From Deltaproteobacteria bacterium (GTDB taxonomy: Bacteria; Myxococcota_A; UBA796; GCA-2862545), in assembly GCA_007693595.1 (NCBI GenBank), contig REDI01000050.1, positions 62,001 to 126,000 of the forward strand: a DNA stretch of 64,000 bases, in the 5' to 3' direction. This document shows, piece after piece, positions 6,795-14,854 of the stretch. The notes under the pieces were generated by a model. The model was not told the origin of the DNA. It made no database searches and saw only the letters and a program-made list of their open reading frames with translations. The stretch's first letter is position 1. Each line of letters begins with the position of its first letter. The translations under genes were made by a program, and so were the position numbers.

Positions 6795-7349
6795 TCAGCC
6801 GGGGAGGGCGCGCTGGATCTGGCTCAGGATCTCCTGGGGATCGGCGAGCCCGCCCACGCCGACCTCGCCGCAGGCCAGCCTCTTCGAGACCGGCTCAACG
6901 ATCTGATAGCGCCCGGTCTCCTGCAGCCAGCGCAGGTTCCGCTGGGTGGTCGGGTGGTCCCACATCTGGGTGTTCATCGCCGGCGCGAGCAAGATAGGGA
7001 CCTCGGGCCTCACGGCGTGTACAACCGTGAGCAGCGCGTCGTCGGCGAGTCCAACCGCCAGTCGCGCCAGGGTGGACTGGGTGAGGGGAGCGAGACAGAC
7101 CACGTCGGGCCAGCGCGCCCACGAGATGTGGCGGATGGCGCTCGCGCCCTCCGAGTCGCCTCCGGTCTCGAGGACTTGGGAGAAGACCGGGTTGCCGCTC
7201 AGGGCCTCGAAGGTGAGGGGCCCGACGAAGGCGCGGGCGCTGTCGGTCATGATCACCCGGACCTCGAAGCCCGCCTTGATCGCCAGGCTCGTGAGGTCGG
7301 CGGCCTTGTAGGCGGCGATGCCGCCGGTGACGCCGAGTAGGAGTCGCAT
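6795..7349 (-). CDS. coaC: Phosphopantothenoylcysteine decarboxylase, stand-alone flavoprotein
   Basis: 184 residues. It decarboxylates 4'-phosphopantothenoylcysteine in coenzyme A synthesis using FMN. Visible are the FMN-binding start GVTGGIAAYK, the active-site His in IRHISWA, the PAMNTQMW motif and the substrate-clamp Cys in RLACGEVGVGG. In most bacteria this domain is fused to the CoaB ligase (about 400 residues); here the frame stops straight after the decarboxylase, so CoaB must be encoded elsewhere. The ATG at 7349 has GGAG 5 bases upstream. It sits 20 bases after the lipoprotein hydrolase gene and is probably co-transcribed with it. A related HFCD flavoprotein of another pathway is possible but less likely. 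Confidence 0.85.
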   Translation of the reverse strand: MRLLLGVTGGIAAYKAADLTSLAIKAGFEVRVIMTDSARAFVGPLTFEALSGNPVFSQVLETGGDSEGASAIRHISWARWPDVVCLAPLTQSTLARLAVGLADDALLTVVHAVRPEVPILLAPAMNTQMWDHPTTQRNLRWLQETGRYQIVEPVSKRLACGEVGVGGLADPQEILSQIQRALPG

Positions 7350-7369
7350 GGTTGCTCCAATCGAGAGGG

Positions 7370-9232
7370 TCAGGGATCGATGATCGGTGCGCTGGTGCCG
7401 AAGGAGGTCCGCACGAAGCGCACCCACATGTCTGAGGCACGGTCATCGCGGAAGATGACGAAGTGATCACCGCCGGACCACTGCGAGAGTCCGCAGGTGA
7501 GCGAGCGGCCATCGTAGCCTTCGATGGTGCGACTCGCGGGCCCTTCACGGGTCGAGAGACCCCGCAGCTCGAAGCCGTCCGTGACGTTCCAGGCGGGAAG
7601 GATGGGGGGCAGGCGGGCGGCGATCGCCAGGGCCTCGGCGGTCTCGTGGTCGGTCTGCTCGTCGTGGGCGCCCGAGGTGAGCAAGGTGTGGGTGGTCCGG
7701 TGGGCGTAGCCGCGATCTTCGGCGTGCCAGGCTGGCCCATAGTTGATCGGATCGGTCTCTTCGACCAAGAGCTGCACCAGGCCGACGAGTGGGTGCAGCG
7801 GGCTGAGCTCCTCGTCGGGGCCCAGGCGCAAGACCTGCCCGATGAGCTCAGCGATGTCGAGGGGGTCCTTGCGCTTGACGATCGTGATGGCCAGCCCGCC
7901 CCCCGCGCCCGAGAGCACCGCCGAGCGCACGGAATCCGAGAGCCAGGGCAGGGCGATGGCGCCGGTGAGCCCACCGTGACTATGGCCGACGAAGCTAATC
8001 TGCTCGGGATCCAGTCGCACGACCCGGCCATCGGGTAGGGTGAGCACGGGCTCAGCGGCCTGCAGCGTCTGCACGATCCACAGGATGTCGAGCGCACCTT
8101 GTCGAAAGCCGGCCCGCGCGGACTCGGGGTTGAGGTAGTTGAAGGAGTGCAGATCGGTGTCGGTTCCAGGGACGCCGCGGGTGCCGTGAAGCGGCTGGTC
8201 GTAGCCGATGCCCACGATGCCCGCCTCCGCCAGGAGCGAGGCGGTTGTTCGTGGCTGATCTCCGCCGGCGAAGCCGCTAAAGCTCCCCCCGGTTCCGTGC
8301 CCGTAGATCACCACGGGGTAGCCGCGTTCGGGCTGATCGTCGGGGGCATTGGGGGGCATCGAGATCGCCAGGCGCAGGTCTTCCCAGTCCGCCACCGAAG
8401 GGTGGCCGTCCTCGTCGGTCCGAAACTCACCGCCGGACGTCGCGAAGGGCTTTTCGCCGTGCATCCAGAGCGGGGCGGGCAGGGTGGCCTCGAAGGTGTG
8501 GTGTCGGGTGCGGGTGTTGAGCTCGACGACCCGCTGGGAGAGGGGCGGAGTGGGCAGGGCGCGACTCGCCCGGACCCACCGATCCATCTCTTCGAGGGGA
8601 TCGCGGGTGGTGAAGACGGAGCCGACCGCGATCGCTTCGGGATCGAGGTCGAGCAGGTCGAGGGTCTCGCGGAGGTCTCTCCAGTCGGGATCGTGGATGA
8701 GGCGCTCCGCGTAGTCGGGGTGCGGGCGGGCGGCCTGGGTGGTGAGGAGGAGGGCGTGGCGGGTGTTCGGATCGAGGGGGAAGCCGAAGACCGGGGCGAT
8801 GGCGAGGACCGCGCGAGGGTTGTAGGTGCCGCTCGGGATGAGCTCCCACTGCACGGGGATCCGGGTTCCGCGATGCGGAGAGGTGGGATCGATGTTGAGG
8901 AGCTGAAGCGCGCTGTCGGCCTCGACGGACTCCAGCGGCGCGGGAAGGAGCGCCTGGTCGGGCAGGCTCCGAACCGGCAAGTAGTGGGTCGAGGAGGTGC
9001 CCCAGCCGGGCAGCTGGCTCGCCGCGCCGAGGTAGCGGTCGAGGAGGGGGATCTGCCCTTCGCCGGGGAAGCCGCTGAGGTCGAGGCCCTCCCCGTCGAA
9101 GCGGTCGTCGGTGGGCCAGGGCGCATCGAAGATCTCGCCGGAGTCGGGGTCGTAGTAGGGCTCGGCCCGTCCCGAGGGATCCGGGCTCGCGCACGCCATG
9201 AGCGAGGCGAGGAGCAGCGCGTTTCGGATCAC
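7370..9232 (-). CDS. Lipoprotein alpha/beta hydrolase (esterase/lipase-like)
   Basis: 620 residues from a GTG at 9232 with GGAGG 4 bases before it; this start gives a lipoprotein signal (IRNALLLASLMAC). The C-terminal half is an alpha/beta hydrolase: oxyanion-side GHGTGG, nucleophile elbow GHSHGG (Ser418) and a late His in SGGDHF. The N-terminal 250 residues form an extra domain common to large secreted or lipoprotein hydrolases of unknown substrate in delta-proteobacteria-like genomes. It is probably anchored in the outer membrane or periplasmic face. It is divergent from purC. The substrate is unknown. Confidence 0.85.
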   Translation of the reverse strand: MIRNALLLASLMACASPDPSGRAEPYYDPDSGEIFDAPWPTDDRFDGEGLDLSGFPGEGQIPLLDRYLGAASQLPGWGTSSTHYLPVRSLPDQALLPAPLESVEADSALQLLNIDPTSPHRGTRIPVQWELIPSGTYNPRAVLAIAPVFGFPLDPNTRHALLLTTQAARPHPDYAERLIHDPDWRDLRETLDLLDLDPEAIAVGSVFTTRDPLEEMDRWVRASRALPTPPLSQRVVELNTRTRHHTFEATLPAPLWMHGEKPFATSGGEFRTDEDGHPSVADWEDLRLAISMPPNAPDDQPERGYPVVIYGHGTGGSFSGFAGGDQPRTTASLLAEAGIVGIGYDQPLHGTRGVPGTDTDLHSFNYLNPESARAGFRQGALDILWIVQTLQAAEPVLTLPDGRVVRLDPEQISFVGHSHGGLTGAIALPWLSDSVRSAVLSGAGGGLAITIVKRKDPLDIAELIGQVLRLGPDEELSPLHPLVGLVQLLVEETDPINYGPAWHAEDRGYAHRTTHTLLTSGAHDEQTDHETAEALAIAARLPPILPAWNVTDGFELRGLSTREGPASRTIEGYDGRSLTCGLSQWSGGDHFVIFRDDRASDMWVRFVRTSFGTSAPIIDP

Positions 9233-9351
9233 AGGCCCTCCGGGGCTACGGGGAGATCGTCTTACCCTGGTCGAGCGCACCCGTCCCGAGCGCAGACCTC
9301 TTGCCCGGGGAAGGCGTGGGGGCTACCCACCACACCCCGCTTGGAGGCCAC

Positions 9352-10074
9352 ATGATCCCCGCACGAGGCGCCGCGCTGTATAAGGGCAAGGCCAAGTCCG
9401 TCTTCGCCACCGATGACCCCTCGCTCGTGATCCTGCGCTTCTCCGATGAAGCGACCGCATTCAACGGCGTCAAGCAGGCGGTCTTCCAAGATAAGGGTCG
9501 CATCAACTGCGCGATCACCGCCCACCTCTTCGACGAGCTGGCGGCTCGGGGCGTGCCCTCTCATATGGTCCGTCAGCTCGGCGAGCGGGATCTGCTCTGC
9601 CACAAGGTCGAGATCATCCCTGTCGAGGTGGTCGTTCGTAACGTCATCGCCGGGAGCCTCGCTCGCCGCTACGGCTTGACCGAGGGCGAGCCGCTCGACG
9701 AGCCGCTGGTGGAGCTCTTCCTCAAGTCCGATGAGCTCAACGATCCCCTGCTCACCGAAGAGGTCGCGGTTCGCTTCGACTTCGCGAAGCGGTGGGAGCT
9801 TCAGTGCATGCGCGAGCAGGCGCTCCAGGTCAACGACCTGCTCCGCGCCTTCTGGGGGGAGCTCGGCATCGATCTGATCGACTTCAAGCTCGAGTTCGGC
9901 CGCCTTGACGGTAAGGTCGTCCTGGCCGATGAGATCACGCCGGATGGCTCCCGACTCTGGGAGCGGGGGACCGGCCAGCGCTTCGATAAGGACGTCTTTC
10001 GACGCGATCTGGGCGATCTGAGCCAGACCTACCGTGCGCTGCACGCGCGCGTCTTCGGCGAGACCCAGGCCTGA
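9352..10074 (+). CDS. purC: SAICAR synthetase (phosphoribosylaminoimidazole-succinocarboxamide synthase)
   Basis: 240 residues, normal for PurC. It joins CAIR and aspartate with ATP in de novo purine synthesis. The start (YKGKAKSVF), the VRNVIAGSLARR block, the DFKLEFG stretch and the ADEITPDGSRLW block are all family signatures and look intact. The ATG at 9352 follows GGAGG by 5 bases; an upstream in-frame start would add 17 unrelated residues. The next gene, a PurF-like protein, starts 10 bases after the stop, so the two are almost certainly on one message. Confidence 0.97.
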   Translation: MIPARGAALYKGKAKSVFATDDPSLVILRFSDEATAFNGVKQAVFQDKGRINCAITAHLFDELAARGVPSHMVRQLGERDLLCHKVEIIPVEVVVRNVIAGSLARRYGLTEGEPLDEPLVELFLKSDELNDPLLTEEVAVRFDFAKRWELQCMREQALQVNDLLRAFWGELGIDLIDFKLEFGRLDGKVVLADEITPDGSRLWERGTGQRFDKDVFRRDLGDLSQTYRALHARVFGETQA

Positions 10075-10084
10075 GGGGGGCGAG

Positions 10085-11497
10085 ATGATCCAAGATGACG
10101 GCAACCTCTTCGCGGTCTCGGGCCACCCGCGCGCGGCATGGGTCACCTACCTTGGTCTGCTCGCCATGGGGCACCGCGCGGCGGGCGGCATCGGTCTGCT
10201 CGCCTCCGAAGGTACGGGCCTGCAGGGTTGGTGGGCGCGCCGCCAAGAGCTCGGCCCCGATGCCGCGCTCGTGCTCGACACCCTACCGGGGAGCCTGGCT
10301 CTCGGGCGTCTCTCGGCGGGTCCGACCGAGGGCTTCGAGCGCCGCCCCCTCGAGCCGGTCCGTCGCTGGTGGCATCGGGGGCAGCTGGGCTGCGCCACCG
10401 CGGGGCGGCTCACGAATGGGGTGGCCCTGCGAAAGCACCTCTTCGAAGACCAGGGCTCCCTCGCGAGCGACACCGATGCCGAGCTCATAACCTCGCTTGT
10501 GGCGCGGGGCAGGGGCAGCAACGTCGTCAGCTCGACCGTGCACGCGCTCTTCGATCTGACGGGGGCGTTCAACCTGATCGTCGCCACCCCGACCCAGCTT
10601 GTGGTCTGTCGCGATCCTTGTGGCTTTCGACCGCTCTTCTTCGGTCGGGTCGATGGCGCCCCCGCCGTAGCTAGTGAGTCGGTCGCCCTGCTCGAGGTGG
10701 GCGCGACGGAGCTGCGCGAGGTGGAGCCGGGCGAGGTGTTGGTGATCGAGGGCGCTCAAGTCGCGACGCTCCATCCCTTCTTGCGGGGCGAGCGACGCCG
10801 CATGGCCAGCTTGGTCGACCTGGTCGCCCTCGCGCGTCCCGAGAGCACGGTCGCTGGGGAGCAGGCTGCCGAGATCCGAGCCGCGCTCGGTCGGGCCTTG
10901 GCGCTTCATGCTCCATCTCCCGAGGCCGCGACCGTGGTCGGGGTCCAGGGCGGTCTGGCTGCCGCCCAGGGCTATGCGCAGGCTCTCGGGCGCCCTTTCA
11001 CCGGCATGATCGCCCCCTTCGTCGAGGGCGGCCAGTCCCCGCTCCCGCCCATCGAGCTCCACGGTCGGGGCCCTGTCTCGGGGTATCGCCTCGAAGGTCC
11101 CGCCTCGGCCGCAGTCACCCTCGTCGTGCCGGCCTTGGCTCAGGCCGCCTCGGTCCGGCCCTACATCCAGGCCCTGCGGCGGGCCGGCGCGGGCGCCATT
11201 CATCTGCGGATCGCGTCGCCACCGATCGTCGCGTCCGAGCCGTATGGCCTCGCGCTCCCACCGCCCGAAGGACTCTTCGCCCAACGATTCAGAGCCCTCG
11301 ACGAACAAGCGCGCGCGCTGTCGGTGGACTCCGTCGGGTGGCTCTCGCTCGACGCGCTCCGAGCCTCCGTCCCAAGCTTCGAACAAGGCTGGTGCGACAC
11401 GATCTGGTCGGGGGAGCTCCCGATCCCTGCCCATGCCCCCGAGGCTCAGCTCGCGCTGACCTTCTCGGGCTCCGATGCCTCGGACACCGAGTCGTGA
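10085..11497 (+). CDS. Amidophosphoribosyltransferase-like protein (PurF fold) with both active sites lost
   Basis: 470 residues that align end to end with PurF, by eye. Conserved landmarks include RLTNGVALRKHLFED, SDTDAELI, CRDPCGFRPLFFGR, VASESVALLEVG, VEPGEVLVIEG and LARPES. The catalytic positions are gone: the N-terminal nucleophile Cys is Gly6 after a five-residue leader, the AHNGN oxyanion motif reads ATAGR, HRGQ reads HRAA, and the PRPP loop DDSIVRGTT reads PALAQAAS (about residues 347-354). The frame is intact and has normal codon use, so it is a maintained pseudoenzyme rather than a decaying pseudogene. Being coupled to purC suggests a regulatory or scaffolding role in purine synthesis, but that is inference. 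It cannot be the working PurF. Confidence 0.86.
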   Translation: MIQDDGNLFAVSGHPRAAWVTYLGLLAMGHRAAGGIGLLASEGTGLQGWWARRQELGPDAALVLDTLPGSLALGRLSAGPTEGFERRPLEPVRRWWHRGQLGCATAGRLTNGVALRKHLFEDQGSLASDTDAELITSLVARGRGSNVVSSTVHALFDLTGAFNLIVATPTQLVVCRDPCGFRPLFFGRVDGAPAVASESVALLEVGATELREVEPGEVLVIEGAQVATLHPFLRGERRRMASLVDLVALARPESTVAGEQAAEIRAALGRALALHAPSPEAATVVGVQGGLAAAQGYAQALGRPFTGMIAPFVEGGQSPLPPIELHGRGPVSGYRLEGPASAAVTLVVPALAQAASVRPYIQALRRAGAGAIHLRIASPPIVASEPYGLALPPPEGLFAQRFRALDEQARALSVDSVGWLSLDALRASVPSFEQGWCDTIWSGELPIPAHAPEAQLALTFSGSDASDTES

Positions 11498-11598: not shown

Positions 11599-12363
11599 GT
11601 GGCGCGTCCGCCGTACTACGATAACGACGATCCGTACTCCGAGCCCCCCATGCCAGGCTTCGGCTCCCAGCGTTCCGGCGCTCCCTTCCAAGAGCCTCGT
11701 TCGGGCGAAGACATCTGGGGCCCGAGCGATCCGAGCGGCTCCTCGTCCGGCTCCTCTTCCGGCTTGGGTCAAGGCGGCGCGGGGCGCATCGTGCTCATGG
11801 GCTTCACCTTTCTCTTTCTCGTCGTGGTAGGGGCCGTCATCGGGGCGAACCTGATCCCCTGGACCGACATGGAAGAACAGGTGATCGAGCCGATCGAGGC
11901 CACGCCGGCGCGCTGGAGCCCGGGTTCCGGGCCCCTCGTTGAGGGGATAGAGATCCCTGGCGAGCGCCCTGCCCGGCTACGCTGGTCGCTCGATGGCCGG
12001 CAACTGGGGTGGTCCTCGGTGGATTCGGATCGGGGTCGGCGTGTCGCGACCGTCATCGAGGTGGGCTCCGAGTTCAGCGAGCCCGTCGAGGCCGATCCCC
12101 AGCCCGACTGGCTCACGGCCCCGCGACCCAGCGGCGACTGGACCGTGAGCATCGAGCATGGCCTGGTCGTCGTGCGCGGGCCGACCCGCCCCGAGGGCGA
12201 GGTCGTGGATCTGGGGCAGATGCAGCTCCACAGCGTGTCCTCACCCGCGCTCTACGAGCGGGGGGACCGCCTGTGGCTCGCGGTGGTCGGGCTTCGCGGC
12301 ACCACCGCCGAGGTTCCCACCCTGCACGTCATCGAGCTGACGCGGTTGGTTGCGCGTCGCTGA
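11599..12363 (+). CDS. Single-pass membrane protein with low-complexity cytoplasmic tail, unknown function
   Basis: 254 residues from GTG 11599 (GGAGG 7 bases upstream; a TTG six bases earlier sits too close to it). Residues 1-60 are disordered (Pro/Gly/Ser, with a Ser-Gly run), one membrane segment spans about 63-85, and the remaining 170 residues lie outside. That part has short strand patterns (LRWSLDGRQLGWSS, WTVSIEHGLVVVRG) reminiscent of beta-propeller blades of the TolB/PD40 kind. I cannot name the family. Its end overlaps the end of epmA, encoded on the other strand, by 35 bases. Confidence 0.7.
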   Translation: MARPPYYDNDDPYSEPPMPGFGSQRSGAPFQEPRSGEDIWGPSDPSGSSSGSSSGLGQGGAGRIVLMGFTFLFLVVVGAVIGANLIPWTDMEEQVIEPIEATPARWSPGSGPLVEGIEIPGERPARLRWSLDGRQLGWSSVDSDRGRRVATVIEVGSEFSEPVEADPQPDWLTAPRPSGDWTVSIEHGLVVVRGPTRPEGEVVDLGQMQLHSVSSPALYERGDRLWLAVVGLRGTTAEVPTLHVIELTRLVARR

Positions 12364-13171
12364 TCGTTGTCGGTACTTGCGCGGGTCCGATACCCCGCCA
12401 GCCGCAGAGGACGGCCACCAGTCGCTCGACGCCCAGCGCGATGCCCGCACACCGTGGAAGACGGTCGATCGCGTCGAGGGCGAGCTCGTCGATGGGGTGG
12501 GGGGGCTCTCCGGCGGCGCGGCGCTCCTGGTTGGCCTCGATCCATCGCTGCCGAAGCTCGCGGGCGTCGCCGAGCTCCTGGAAGGCGTTCGCGATCTCGA
12601 TCCCCCCGAGATAGGCCTCGAAGCGTTCGCATCGGGCGTAGTCTCTGTCGGTGCGCACGGTCGCCAAGGCGGCCTGGCTCGCGGGCCAGCCCTCGACGAA
12701 GCAGGGGTGGGTGAGCCGGGGCTCGATCTCTTCGAGGTAGCGGCGGAAGAAGGCGGTGTCCCAGTCCTCGGGGTCGCGGCTGCTCAGATCGGATGCGGAG
12801 CAGCTCCGCAGATCGAGGCCACACATCTGCAGGAAGAGCTCCCGCACCGGGTGCCGGCTCCAGGCGGCGGGAGCGGGTTGGGCGAGGGCTTGGGCGACCG
12901 TGCCGACGAGATCCTGAACCTCATACATCAGATCAGGGAGCGTCGCTCCGGCTCGATACCACTCCAACATCAGGAACTCCGAGGCGTGCCACGGCCCGCT
13001 CTCTCGCGCTCGAAGACAAGGACCCAGCTCGTAGACTCTGGGCAGACCGGCAGCGAGCACCCGCTTGAGCGCGAGCTCGGGCGAGGTGCGCAGAGCGCCT
13101 CCCTCGCGGACCGAATAGGCGAAGAGGGTCGGCTCCAGGGCAGGCGAGGGCACCCGCACCGGGGTAGGCAC
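12329..13171 (-). CDS. epmA: EF-P lysine ligase EpmA (lysyl-tRNA-synthetase paralogue); 5' end unresolved
   Basis: EpmA attaches (R)-beta-lysine to a lysine of elongation factor P. The class II synthetase core is clear: LRTSPELALKRVLAAG, FLMLEWYRAG (motif 2), FPASQA-equivalent WPASQAALA, ERFEAYLGGIEIANAFQEL and GIALGVERLV (motif 3). The anticodon-binding domain of LysRS is absent, as in EpmA. The first standard start is GTG 13171, but homology continues upstream in frame for about 20 residues (ALRAIRGWFDRHGYLEV, motif 1), up to a stop at 13262-13264, with no ATG, GTG or TTG there. Either a rare codon (for example ATC) is used, or the truncated form is made. The gene lies directly after efp on the same strand. 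Confidence 0.88.
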   Translation of the reverse strand: MPTPVRVPSPALEPTLFAYSVREGGALRTSPELALKRVLAAGLPRVYELGPCLRARESGPWHASEFLMLEWYRAGATLPDLMYEVQDLVGTVAQALAQPAPAAWSRHPVRELFLQMCGLDLRSCSASDLSSRDPEDWDTAFFRRYLEEIEPRLTHPCFVEGWPASQAALATVRTDRDYARCERFEAYLGGIEIANAFQELGDARELRQRWIEANQERRAAGEPPHPIDELALDAIDRLPRCAGIALGVERLVAVLCGWRGIGPAQVPTTISDAQPTASAR

Positions 13172-13257: not shown

Positions 13258-13821
13258 CTACTTACGCACCCGCTCGACATACTCGCCGGTGCGGGTGTCG
13301 ATCTTGATGGTCTCGCCCTGCTCGACGAACAGGGGCACGTTGACGCTGGCGCCGGTGCTGAGCTCGGCGGTCTTGGTCGCGCCCGTGGCGGTATTGCCCT
13401 TCACACCGGGCTCGCAGTAGGTGATCTCGAGCTCGACAAAGTTGGGCAGCTCGATGTTGATCGGGCGGCCATTCCAGAAGAGCACCCGCACCATCATCTC
13501 GTCGATGAGCCACCGGGCGTCGTCGGCGAGCACGGAGTCCTCGATCATGACCTGCTCGAACGAGGTCGTATCCATGAAGACACGCATGTTACCTTCGGGG
13601 TAGATGTACTGCATCTCGCGCTCTTCGATGTCGGCGGGCTGAAGTTTCTCGCCGGTGCGGAAGGTGCGGTCCAGCACGTTACCCGAGGTCAGGCTCTTGA
13701 GCTTGGTGCGGGTGAAGGCCGTGCCCTTGCCCGGCTTGACGAACTGAAAGTACGTCACGACGTAGGGCTGGCCATCGAACTCGATCTTGAGGCCGTTGCG
13801 GATATCGGAGGTCTCGTACAT
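13258..13821 (-). CDS. efp: Translation elongation factor P
   Basis: 187 residues in three domains (KOW-like start, OB, C-terminal OB), standard for EF-P, which rescues ribosomes stalled at polyproline. The tip loop is FVKPGKGTAF, with Lys32 at the position that EpmA/EpmB modify in E. coli (Lys34), so the modification genes next to it fit. Its ATG (13821) overlaps the ATG of epmB on the other strand by two bases. A purine-rich GAGAA stretch precedes the start but there is no strong Shine-Dalgarno sequence. Confidence 0.97.
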   Translation of the reverse strand: MYETSDIRNGLKIEFDGQPYVVTYFQFVKPGKGTAFTRTKLKSLTSGNVLDRTFRTGEKLQPADIEEREMQYIYPEGNMRVFMDTTSFEQVMIEDSVLADDARWLIDEMMVRVLFWNGRPINIELPNFVELEITYCEPGVKGNTATGATKTAELSTGASVNVPLFVEQGETIKIDTRTGEYVERVRK

Positions 13822-13822
13822 G
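13807..13822. promoter_or_regulatory. Overlapping divergent start codons of efp and epmB, with epmB ribosome-binding site inside efp
   Basis: CATG at 13819-13822 supplies the ATG of efp on the minus strand and of epmB on the plus strand. GGAGG at 13807-13811 is placed 8 bases before the epmB ATG, inside the efp coding sequence. If both starts are right, each promoter must lie inside the other gene. Confidence 0.6.
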
Positions 13823-14854
13823 GGTGATTCTCGCGCGAAGGGTTCGACGGGCTGGCAGGCGTATCACAGCCGACCAGAACCCGCGACAACAGTCTCGGTC
13901 GTGGGTCGCCCAGCCCTGCTCGCCGCCCGCCCCGATCTGGCGGCGCACTGGGCGCAAGCCGATGCCCTCTTCCCGGTTCGGGTGACCGGCTCCTTCTGGT
14001 CGCGCGTCGATCCTTCGGATCGGCTCGACCCCCTGGCGCGTCAGGTCCTCCCCTCCGCCGAGGAGCTCGACGATCCCGAAGGGCTCGACGATCCGGTCGG
14101 CGATGCAGCGTGCAGTCCCCTGCCTTGGGTCGTCCACAAGTACCCCGACCGGGTCTTGATCCTGCTGACCAAGCGGTGCCATCTGTATTGCCGCTACTGC
14201 TTCCGACGAACCTTCGATCCGGCGGAGCGTGAAGACCCCACCGTCGAGGAGCTGGACGCGGCCATCGCCTATGCCCGGCGGAGCGGGGCCGAAGAGGTCA
14301 TCCTCTCGGGTGGCGATCCCCTCGCGGTGCGCGATGAGAGGCTGTTTGACGTGATCGATGCCCTCCGCCCCTCGGTCCCCGTCCTGCGGGTCCACTCGCG
14401 TGCGCCCATCACCAAGCCCGCTCGGGTGACGGAGCGGTTGGTCCGCGGGCTGGCGTCGCGAGCGCCAGTATGGATGGTCGTGCACTGCAATCATCCGCGC
14501 GAGCTCTCCCCCGAGGTCGACGAGGCCCTGCGTCTCCTGATCCGTGCCGGGGTGCCGGTGATGAACCAAGCGGTGCTCCTGCGAGGCGTCAACGACGATG
14601 TCGAGGTGCTGGTCGAGCTCTGCCGGGCGCTCGTTCGGCGGGGGGTCAAGCCCTACTACCTTCACCACCCCGATCGGGTGCGCGGGGCGGGTCATTTCGC
14701 CCTTTCACCCCAAGAGGGGCTATCCTTATACCATGCACTACGCCGTCGACTGAGCGGCTTGGCGACCCCTCGCTACGTCATCGATCCCCCCGACGGTCGT
14801 GGAAAGATCGACGTGGAGCGCCACCTCGGCTCGTTGGACCTTTCGTTGGCGTAG
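13820..14854 (+). CDS. epmB: EF-P-specific lysine 2,3-aminomutase EpmB (radical SAM)
   Basis: 344 residues, close to the 342 of E. coli EpmB. It converts (S)-alpha-lysine to (R)-beta-lysine for EpmA to attach to EF-P. The radical SAM motif is KRCHLYCRYCFRR (Cys120, 124, 127), followed by the SAM-binding ILSGGDPL block; later come RVHSRAPITKPARVTERLV and KPYYLHHPDRVRGAGHF, typical of the aminomutase family. The start 13820 is supported by GGAGG and by length; GTG 13901 is an alternative that would leave room for divergent promoters. Short length without the extra C-terminal domain points to EpmB rather than the catabolic KamA. Confidence 0.88.
   Translation: MGDSRAKGSTGWQAYHSRPEPATTVSVVGRPALLAARPDLAAHWAQADALFPVRVTGSFWSRVDPSDRLDPLARQVLPSAEELDDPEGLDDPVGDAACSPLPWVVHKYPDRVLILLTKRCHLYCRYCFRRTFDPAEREDPTVEELDAAIAYARRSGAEEVILSGGDPLAVRDERLFDVIDALRPSVPVLRVHSRAPITKPARVTERLVRGLASRAPVWMVVHCNHPRELSPEVDEALRLLIRAGVPVMNQAVLLRGVNDDVEVLVELCRALVRRGVKPYYLHHPDRVRGAGHFALSPQEGLSLYHALRRRLSGLATPRYVIDPPDGRGKIDVERHLGSLDLSLA

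Follow-up and report, generated by a model that had tools for sequence, protein, structure and literature searches.

Why should a bacterium keep a full-length PurF from which both active sites have disappeared, in an open frame directly behind purC? This question is raised by one gene in the 64,000-nucleotide stretch of DNA analyzed here (the window). A first-pass annotation made from the letters alone had described its product as a PurF paralogue retained without catalysis and had suggested a regulatory partner of PurF or PurC, or a metabolite sensor. Our analysis places the protein in a group, here called dead PurF2, whose carriers belong to an uncultured myxobacterial order, and suggests that it is probably a non-catalytic protein with a regulatory or structural role.

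Family membership and fold of the window protein

The protein is colinear with PurF, its residues 9–445 corresponding to positions 4–431 of the 432 positions of the TIGR01134 profile. The score of 153.2 bits (E = 1e-44) lies below the curated equivalog cut-off of 350 bits. A phmmer comparison with B. subtilis PurF (1gph) gave an E-value of 1.8e-46, and these E-values together with the conservation in relatives rule out chance as the source of the likeness. The AlphaFold model (mean pLDDT 84, pTM 0.85) superimposes on the PurFs of B. subtilis and Arabidopsis (1ao0, 1gph and 6lbp) with Z about 44, at 2.2–2.5 Å over about 430 residues, and predicts that the two-domain fold of Ntn glutaminase and type I PRTase is present at full length. 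In the structural alignment window residues 6–458 correspond to residues 1–458 of 1ao0, so that residue 6 falls on Cys1 of the mature enzymes. The full-length colinearity claimed in the first-pass annotation was therefore borne out by profile, phmmer search and superposition alike. The landmarks it had named, CRDPCGFRPL and VASESVALLE, were both found, and the frame is indeed intact and begins 10 bases after purC (Table 1). The Pfam PRT domain is not recognized in the window protein, and among dead relatives in 1 of 23 only.

Table 1. Features of the purC–purF2 locus in window coordinates
Feature	Position	Strand	Basis or remark
purC, co-oriented, upstream of psi-purF2	9301..10074	+	TIGR00081, 221.8 bits
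Gap between purC and psi-purF2, 10 nt, ggggggcgag; G-rich, putatively ribosome-binding-like	10075..10084	+	sequence
Dead PurF paralogue (psi-PurF2), 470 aa, intact frame	10085..11497	+	ATG at 10085, TGA ends at 11497
Gly6 at the position of the nucleophile Cys1	10100..10102	+	sequence alignment; structural alignment to 1ao0
Ser77 at the position of Arg73 (glutamine-binding)	10313..10315	+	alignment
TAGR (residues 105–108) replacing oxyanion HNGN, Gly kept	10397..10408	+	alignment
Ser242, lost [4Fe-4S] ligand 1 (the other dead genera have Cys wherever readable)	10808..10810	+	alignment
Degenerate PRPP loop VPALAQAAS (348–356) replacing DDSIVRGTT	11126..11152	+	alignment
Glu385, lost [4Fe-4S] ligand 2	11237..11239	+	alignment
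Cys437, sole [4Fe-4S] ligand left	11393..11395	+	alignment
Ile440, lost [4Fe-4S] ligand 4	11402..11404	+	alignment
C-terminal tail motif QLALTF	11447..11464	+	alignment; low-pLDDT tail in the AlphaFold model
EpmA-like gene, conserved downstream block	12329..13171	-	TIGR00462, 228 bits (below the cut-off of 287); synteny
Elongation factor P gene, conserved downstream block	13258..13821	-	TIGR00038, 258 bits; synteny
EpmB/KamA-type radical SAM gene, conserved downstream block	13787..14854	+	profile match; synteny

Loss of both active sites

By alignment, both catalytic sites of the window protein are lost. The replacement of the nucleophile Cys, of HNGN and of the PRPP loop had been read correctly in the first-pass annotation (Table 1). 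In addition, the Arg73 region GHVRYST reads GRLSAGP and the PPi loop VPDS reads VQGG. The HRG motif, also listed there as replaced, reads HRA: the following Gly-Gln is indeed gone, but His-Arg remain.

The same losses run through the relatives. Ranked over the 130 columns that are invariant in catalytically intact (live) PurF2, residues are retained by the dead group on average in half of the cases, and the least retained are Cys1 (14%), His100 (0%) and Asn101 (7%). In the PRPP loop Asp347 and Arg352 are kept in 0%, Asp348 in 10% and Thr354 in 7% of the dead copies; the loop is destroyed in all 28 readable copies, none of which keeps both Asp. An ammonia-dependent phosphoribosylamine synthase, the role suggested for another PurF homolog without nucleophile Cys, the crenarchaeal PurF' (PMC3261824), is thus barely credible for the dead group, the more so as single mutations of PRPP-loop Asp residues cut the activity of Arabidopsis GPRAT2 (PMC7056826); for the window protein, with its loop gone, the proposal cannot apply. 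Nothing was found to support the suggested metabolite sensing either, and the protein no longer has its PRPP/nucleotide loop.

If the former Ntn or PRT pocket had come to bind a new ligand or catalyze a new reaction, this would suit the long retention and the rapid sequence change of the dead copies, in which the glutaminase-pocket residue Gly102 and often Asp126 are kept and Arg stands at position 103 in 63%. The dead copies were searched for conserved polar residues that would set them apart as a group, but no such constellation emerged: only the Arg at position 103 and an Asp preceding the tail motif reach 60% dead-specific conservation, the pocket residues differ between genera, and no polar set is common to the group besides the Fe-S cysteines and structural positions. 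This argues for a non-catalytic role, and we give little credence to a new pocket function.

Canonical PurF and distribution of dead purF2

A second, catalytic PurF, for which the first-pass annotation had proposed a genome search, is encoded in the same genome outside the window on contig C95. This purF1 scores 439 bits against TIGR01134 and shows every catalytic residue as well as all four Fe-S cysteines, which rules out the window protein as the organism's only PurF.

All 63 genomes sampled from the order were searched for PurF. A dead purF2 is present in 30, its frame open and cut by contig ends only: in the window's own family (f1) in 20 of 21 genomes, in f2 in six (genera g20 and g200), in f3 and f4 in one each and in f5 in two. 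Another 27 genomes of the order carry a live purF2 instead, and the two forms never occur together in one of its genomes. A further PurF match exists in 27 of the 30 dead-copy genomes, and the 22 that were checked residue by residue are canonical over the part that their contigs cover, some being partial. No other purF was seen in G005, G015 and G024, which are 85–94% complete, so that assembly gaps may be responsible. Outside the order, live purF2 was found in five genomes from other families of the class, and the 72 further genomes sampled from the phylum carry canonical PurF, accompanied in some by proteins of another, GATase-dead group, with the proviso that very divergent dead copies could escape the threshold. 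A scan of genome contigs with the query P0001 matched no relative.

Since independent genomes show the same losses in open frames, recent local decay, a sequencing error or a MAG chimera can be ruled out. Retention without catalysis, as the first-pass annotation had it, is supported by the separate catalytic purF, by the family orthologues without both sites and by purifying selection in relatives (see below).

Two side observations concern the survey. A third canonical PurF type (PurF3; L037, L038, L059 and L093 in G002, G003, G006 and G033) adjoins a divergent purC homolog (26–29% identity) in G002, G003 and G033. Furthermore, the records of L126 and L136, titled Klebsiella pneumoniae and Bifidobacterium breve, are MAG contigs that encode a dead PurF of myxobacterial type and a PurF like that of Actinobacteria, and their titles are probably mislabelled.

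Gene order and the relation to PurC

Dead and live copies share one locus. Immediately 5' of the dead gene lies purC in the window and in G001, G004, G014, G016 and G019, and likewise 5' of the live purF2 in G027, G032, G037, G046 and G048. On the 3' side the epmA-efp-epmB block accompanies the dead gene of the window and those of G001, G002, G003, G006, G012, G013, G015 and G019; it is found in part behind the live copies in G027, G028 and G048. The window gene thus has purC upstream and epmA-efp-epmB downstream, and this common order indicates that the dead gene and a working purF2 are positional orthologues. Further 5' of purC a lipase-like protein of 636 residues (VolA/Pla-1 family, weak; window 7370–9280, minus strand) and a CoaC-like flavoprotein (6795–7427, minus strand) are encoded, both of which are kept there in several genomes of the family.

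The operon might suggest that dead PurF serves PurC or another purine enzyme as scaffold or regulator, with the operon fixing a stoichiometric complex into which it docks the neighbouring enzymes. This would agree with the adjacency to purC in the window, in its congener (L036), where the two genes overlap by 4 nt, and at L040, L048, L050 and L053, and a conserved motif in a tail that is probably disordered would suit docking. The order purC-purF2 is however ancestral and found equally with live purF2 (L085, L092, L101, L110 and L111), so that it need not reflect the role of the dead protein; moreover, purC is absent from the fetched flanks of the dead copies L039, L042, L045, L049 and L054 and lies about 3 kb away from L044 and L047. 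We therefore consider a PurC partner unlikely, if worth keeping in mind.

Origin and selection

In sister families the gene at this position, likewise associated with purC, encodes an intact PurF. Gene order and sequence comparison therefore indicate that an ancestral live purF2 of the purC operon lost catalysis in place. The possibility raised in the first-pass annotation, that orthologues keep the catalytic residues and the copy is a local decay, holds in its first half for the sister families only, whereas within the window's family the gene is dead in 20 of 21 genomes and local decay does not apply. A purF2 of G044 (L100; C320, reverse, about 1476–2861) with Cys1, Arg73 and Asp127 kept, HNGQ for HNGN and the PRPP loop DASLVRGET is, by its residues, a half-dead intermediate in this loss.

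In the protein tree all 29 dead rows tested lie on one side of a branch with support 92/98, the window copy with G001 as its sister (100/99). The branches of the dead copies are much longer than those of the live ones and may attract each other, so that their joining is not decisive for a single loss. In AU tests a grouping of the g20 dead copies with the live copies of their own family was not rejected (p = 0.086), and a grouping of G023 with its half-dead congener G044 was marginally rejected (p = 0.026). Families f2, f4 and f5 each contain dead as well as live genera, so that catalysis may have been lost, or the gene transferred, several times.

The dN/dS ratios (NG86, congeneric pairs), which are rough because a number of the synonymous distances approach or exceed 1, were 0.08 (G003/G015), 0.19–0.26 (g20), 0.25–0.26 (g18) and 0.22 (g11) for dead pairs and 0.03–0.27 for live copies. 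These ratios speak for purifying selection on the dead copies of relatives. In the window's own genus the sole pair gave 0.59, at a saturated dS of 1.0 and 42% identity; constraint there is by this measure weaker than elsewhere or unmeasurable.

The alternative that the gene is the remnant of a redundant enzyme, in slow decay and without present function, has to be weighed against these figures. Catalysis was lost where a second purF exists, the dead branches are long, and the window's genus has also lost three Fe-S ligands. In contrast, the frame is open in all 30 sampled lineages, the ratios of 0.08–0.26 in close pairs indicate constraint, and the Fe-S cysteines and the tail are selectively conserved. 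Slow decay is accordingly left with a slender chance.

The [4Fe-4S] ligands and the C-terminal tail

Outside the window's genus (g1) the four Fe-S cysteines are retained in 100, 96, 96 and 96% of the dead copies. The shortfall is due to one truncated sequence, and every dead copy that is long enough shows all four. Also among the residues best retained there are Gly102, Asp172, Gly175 and Gly211 and, in the tail, Gln, Leu and Phe. By this ranking the cluster site is the best-kept functional feature of dead PurF2 in most genera, though the cysteines could also have a merely structural role. In the window copy and its congener, three of the four ligands are lost, so that the window protein falls outside the four-Cys [4Fe-4S] class; for this reason the first-pass annotation could not see the ligand set.

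The tail motif Q[LVM]x[LM]F is shared by the live purF2 copies of the class and almost all dead ones but is absent from purF1. The tail that carries it has low confidence in the model and is probably disordered. The motif resembles the sliding-clamp binding motif, and DnaE of the window's own genome has QGSLF in the region matching that motif. PurFs of other Myxococcota have QLxLVGV-like tails, and two (G058 and G080) end in QLSLF. A clamp-binding reading is not claimed, since the QLxLVGV-like tails elsewhere in the phylum allow another or an intramolecular role.

Possible function of dead PurF2

We favor the reading that dead PurF2 assembles with canonical PurF and modulates how active or stable it is, the Fe-S cluster serving as a switch in most genera, and assign it a probability of about 0.4. 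An ancestral competent [4Fe-4S] PurF2 of the purC operon would have lost both half-reactions in the window's family, leaving phosphoribosylamine to be made by purF1 on another contig, and the dead protein would have been retained for its folding and contacts. Since PurFs are homotetramers (PMC7056826), a mixed oligomer with PurF1 is the most likely contact, and it may alter the activity or stability of PurF1, in a direction that could be either. Precedent for such control exists in human PPAT, which is governed by a non-catalytic partner, NUDT5 (PMC13421311). We infer that the gene is expressed and that the cluster is present in most genera, where it could act as a redox- or iron-dependent structural switch; haem-copper oxidases encoded in the window's own genome make exposure to oxygen plausible. 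In the window's genus, with the ligands gone, the protein-contact role alone would remain.

Four points count against this reading: the dead gene adjoins purC and not purF1; no other purF was seen in three dead-copy genomes; the lost ligands together with the dN/dS of 0.59 point to weaker constraint in g1; and the cysteines kept elsewhere could be purely structural. The 'regulatory partner' of PurF put forward in the first-pass annotation is nevertheless a reasonable reading of the sequence data.

A bolder proposal is that dead PurF2 is a PurF reduced to a [4Fe-4S] sensor of oxygen, redox state or iron that acts in trans on catalytic PurF and controls its activity or half-life. Q[LV]xLF would dock a further partner, and the window's genus would have a cluster-free form. 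We consider this quite unlikely; if true, the clamp-like peptide would tie purine supply to replication.

Relation to known systems

Canonical PurF of the B. subtilis class (TIGR01134; 1gph, 1ao0 and the plant enzyme 6lbp) shares with the window protein its colinearity, its fold and the landmarks RDPxGFRPL and REVEPGE, but the window protein has both active sites destroyed and reaches 153 of the 350 bits of the cut-off. Most dead relatives have the four cluster ligands of canonical [4Fe-4S] PurF, whereas the window copy has one. The PurF of E. coli has no Fe-S cluster, unlike B. subtilis-type PurF, in which the role of the cluster has long been unclear. With a family that lacks both PurF active sites yet has the four ligands, a non-catalytic role of the cluster can be addressed directly.

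A literature search, from whose reach most subscription papers were excluded, found no bacterial dead PurF, so that a PurF dead at both sites is, as far as searchable, undescribed in bacteria. The suggestion in the first-pass annotation that proteins of this kind are undescribed was too strong, as the crenarchaeal PurF' without Cys, the nearest described case, was reported in 2011 (Brown et al., PMC3261824). Like the window protein, this second PurF of purine gene clusters lacks the nucleophile and is retained beside a true PurF; it was proposed to be ammonia-dependent. PurF' was reported for the loss of the glutaminase Cys alone and stems from another domain of life, whereas the window protein also lacks the PRPP loop. 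Synteny and the tree, which comprised bacterial PurFs and no archaeal PurF', point to a local origin of dead purF2.

A second PurF-like group was observed in Myxococcota (L172 in G083, L173 in G137, L174 in G225, L175 in G185 and L077 in G022). Like dead PurF2 it lacks Cys1 and HNGN, in whose place it has TVGR or MTGF; it has four Fe-S cysteines, and the genomes of L172–L175 also carry a canonical PurF. Unlike dead PurF2 it has an intact PRPP loop, EDSIVRGTQL, evolves slowly, lacks the QLxLF tail and forms a separate group. It is possibly an ammonia-dependent or other PRTase.

Proteins kept without catalysis are also known from other enzymes. The ORF75 protein of KSHV is related to PurL/FGARAT and not to PurF. 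Like dead PurF, this pseudo-amidotransferase is kept without catalysis, in a viral and different setting (PMC11981178). The AdoMetDC prozyme of trypanosomes is a dead paralogue that regulates its live partner (PMC5201418). Although the enzyme is unrelated, and partner and effect are proven there and proposed here, the prozyme provides a model of how dead PurF2 may work.
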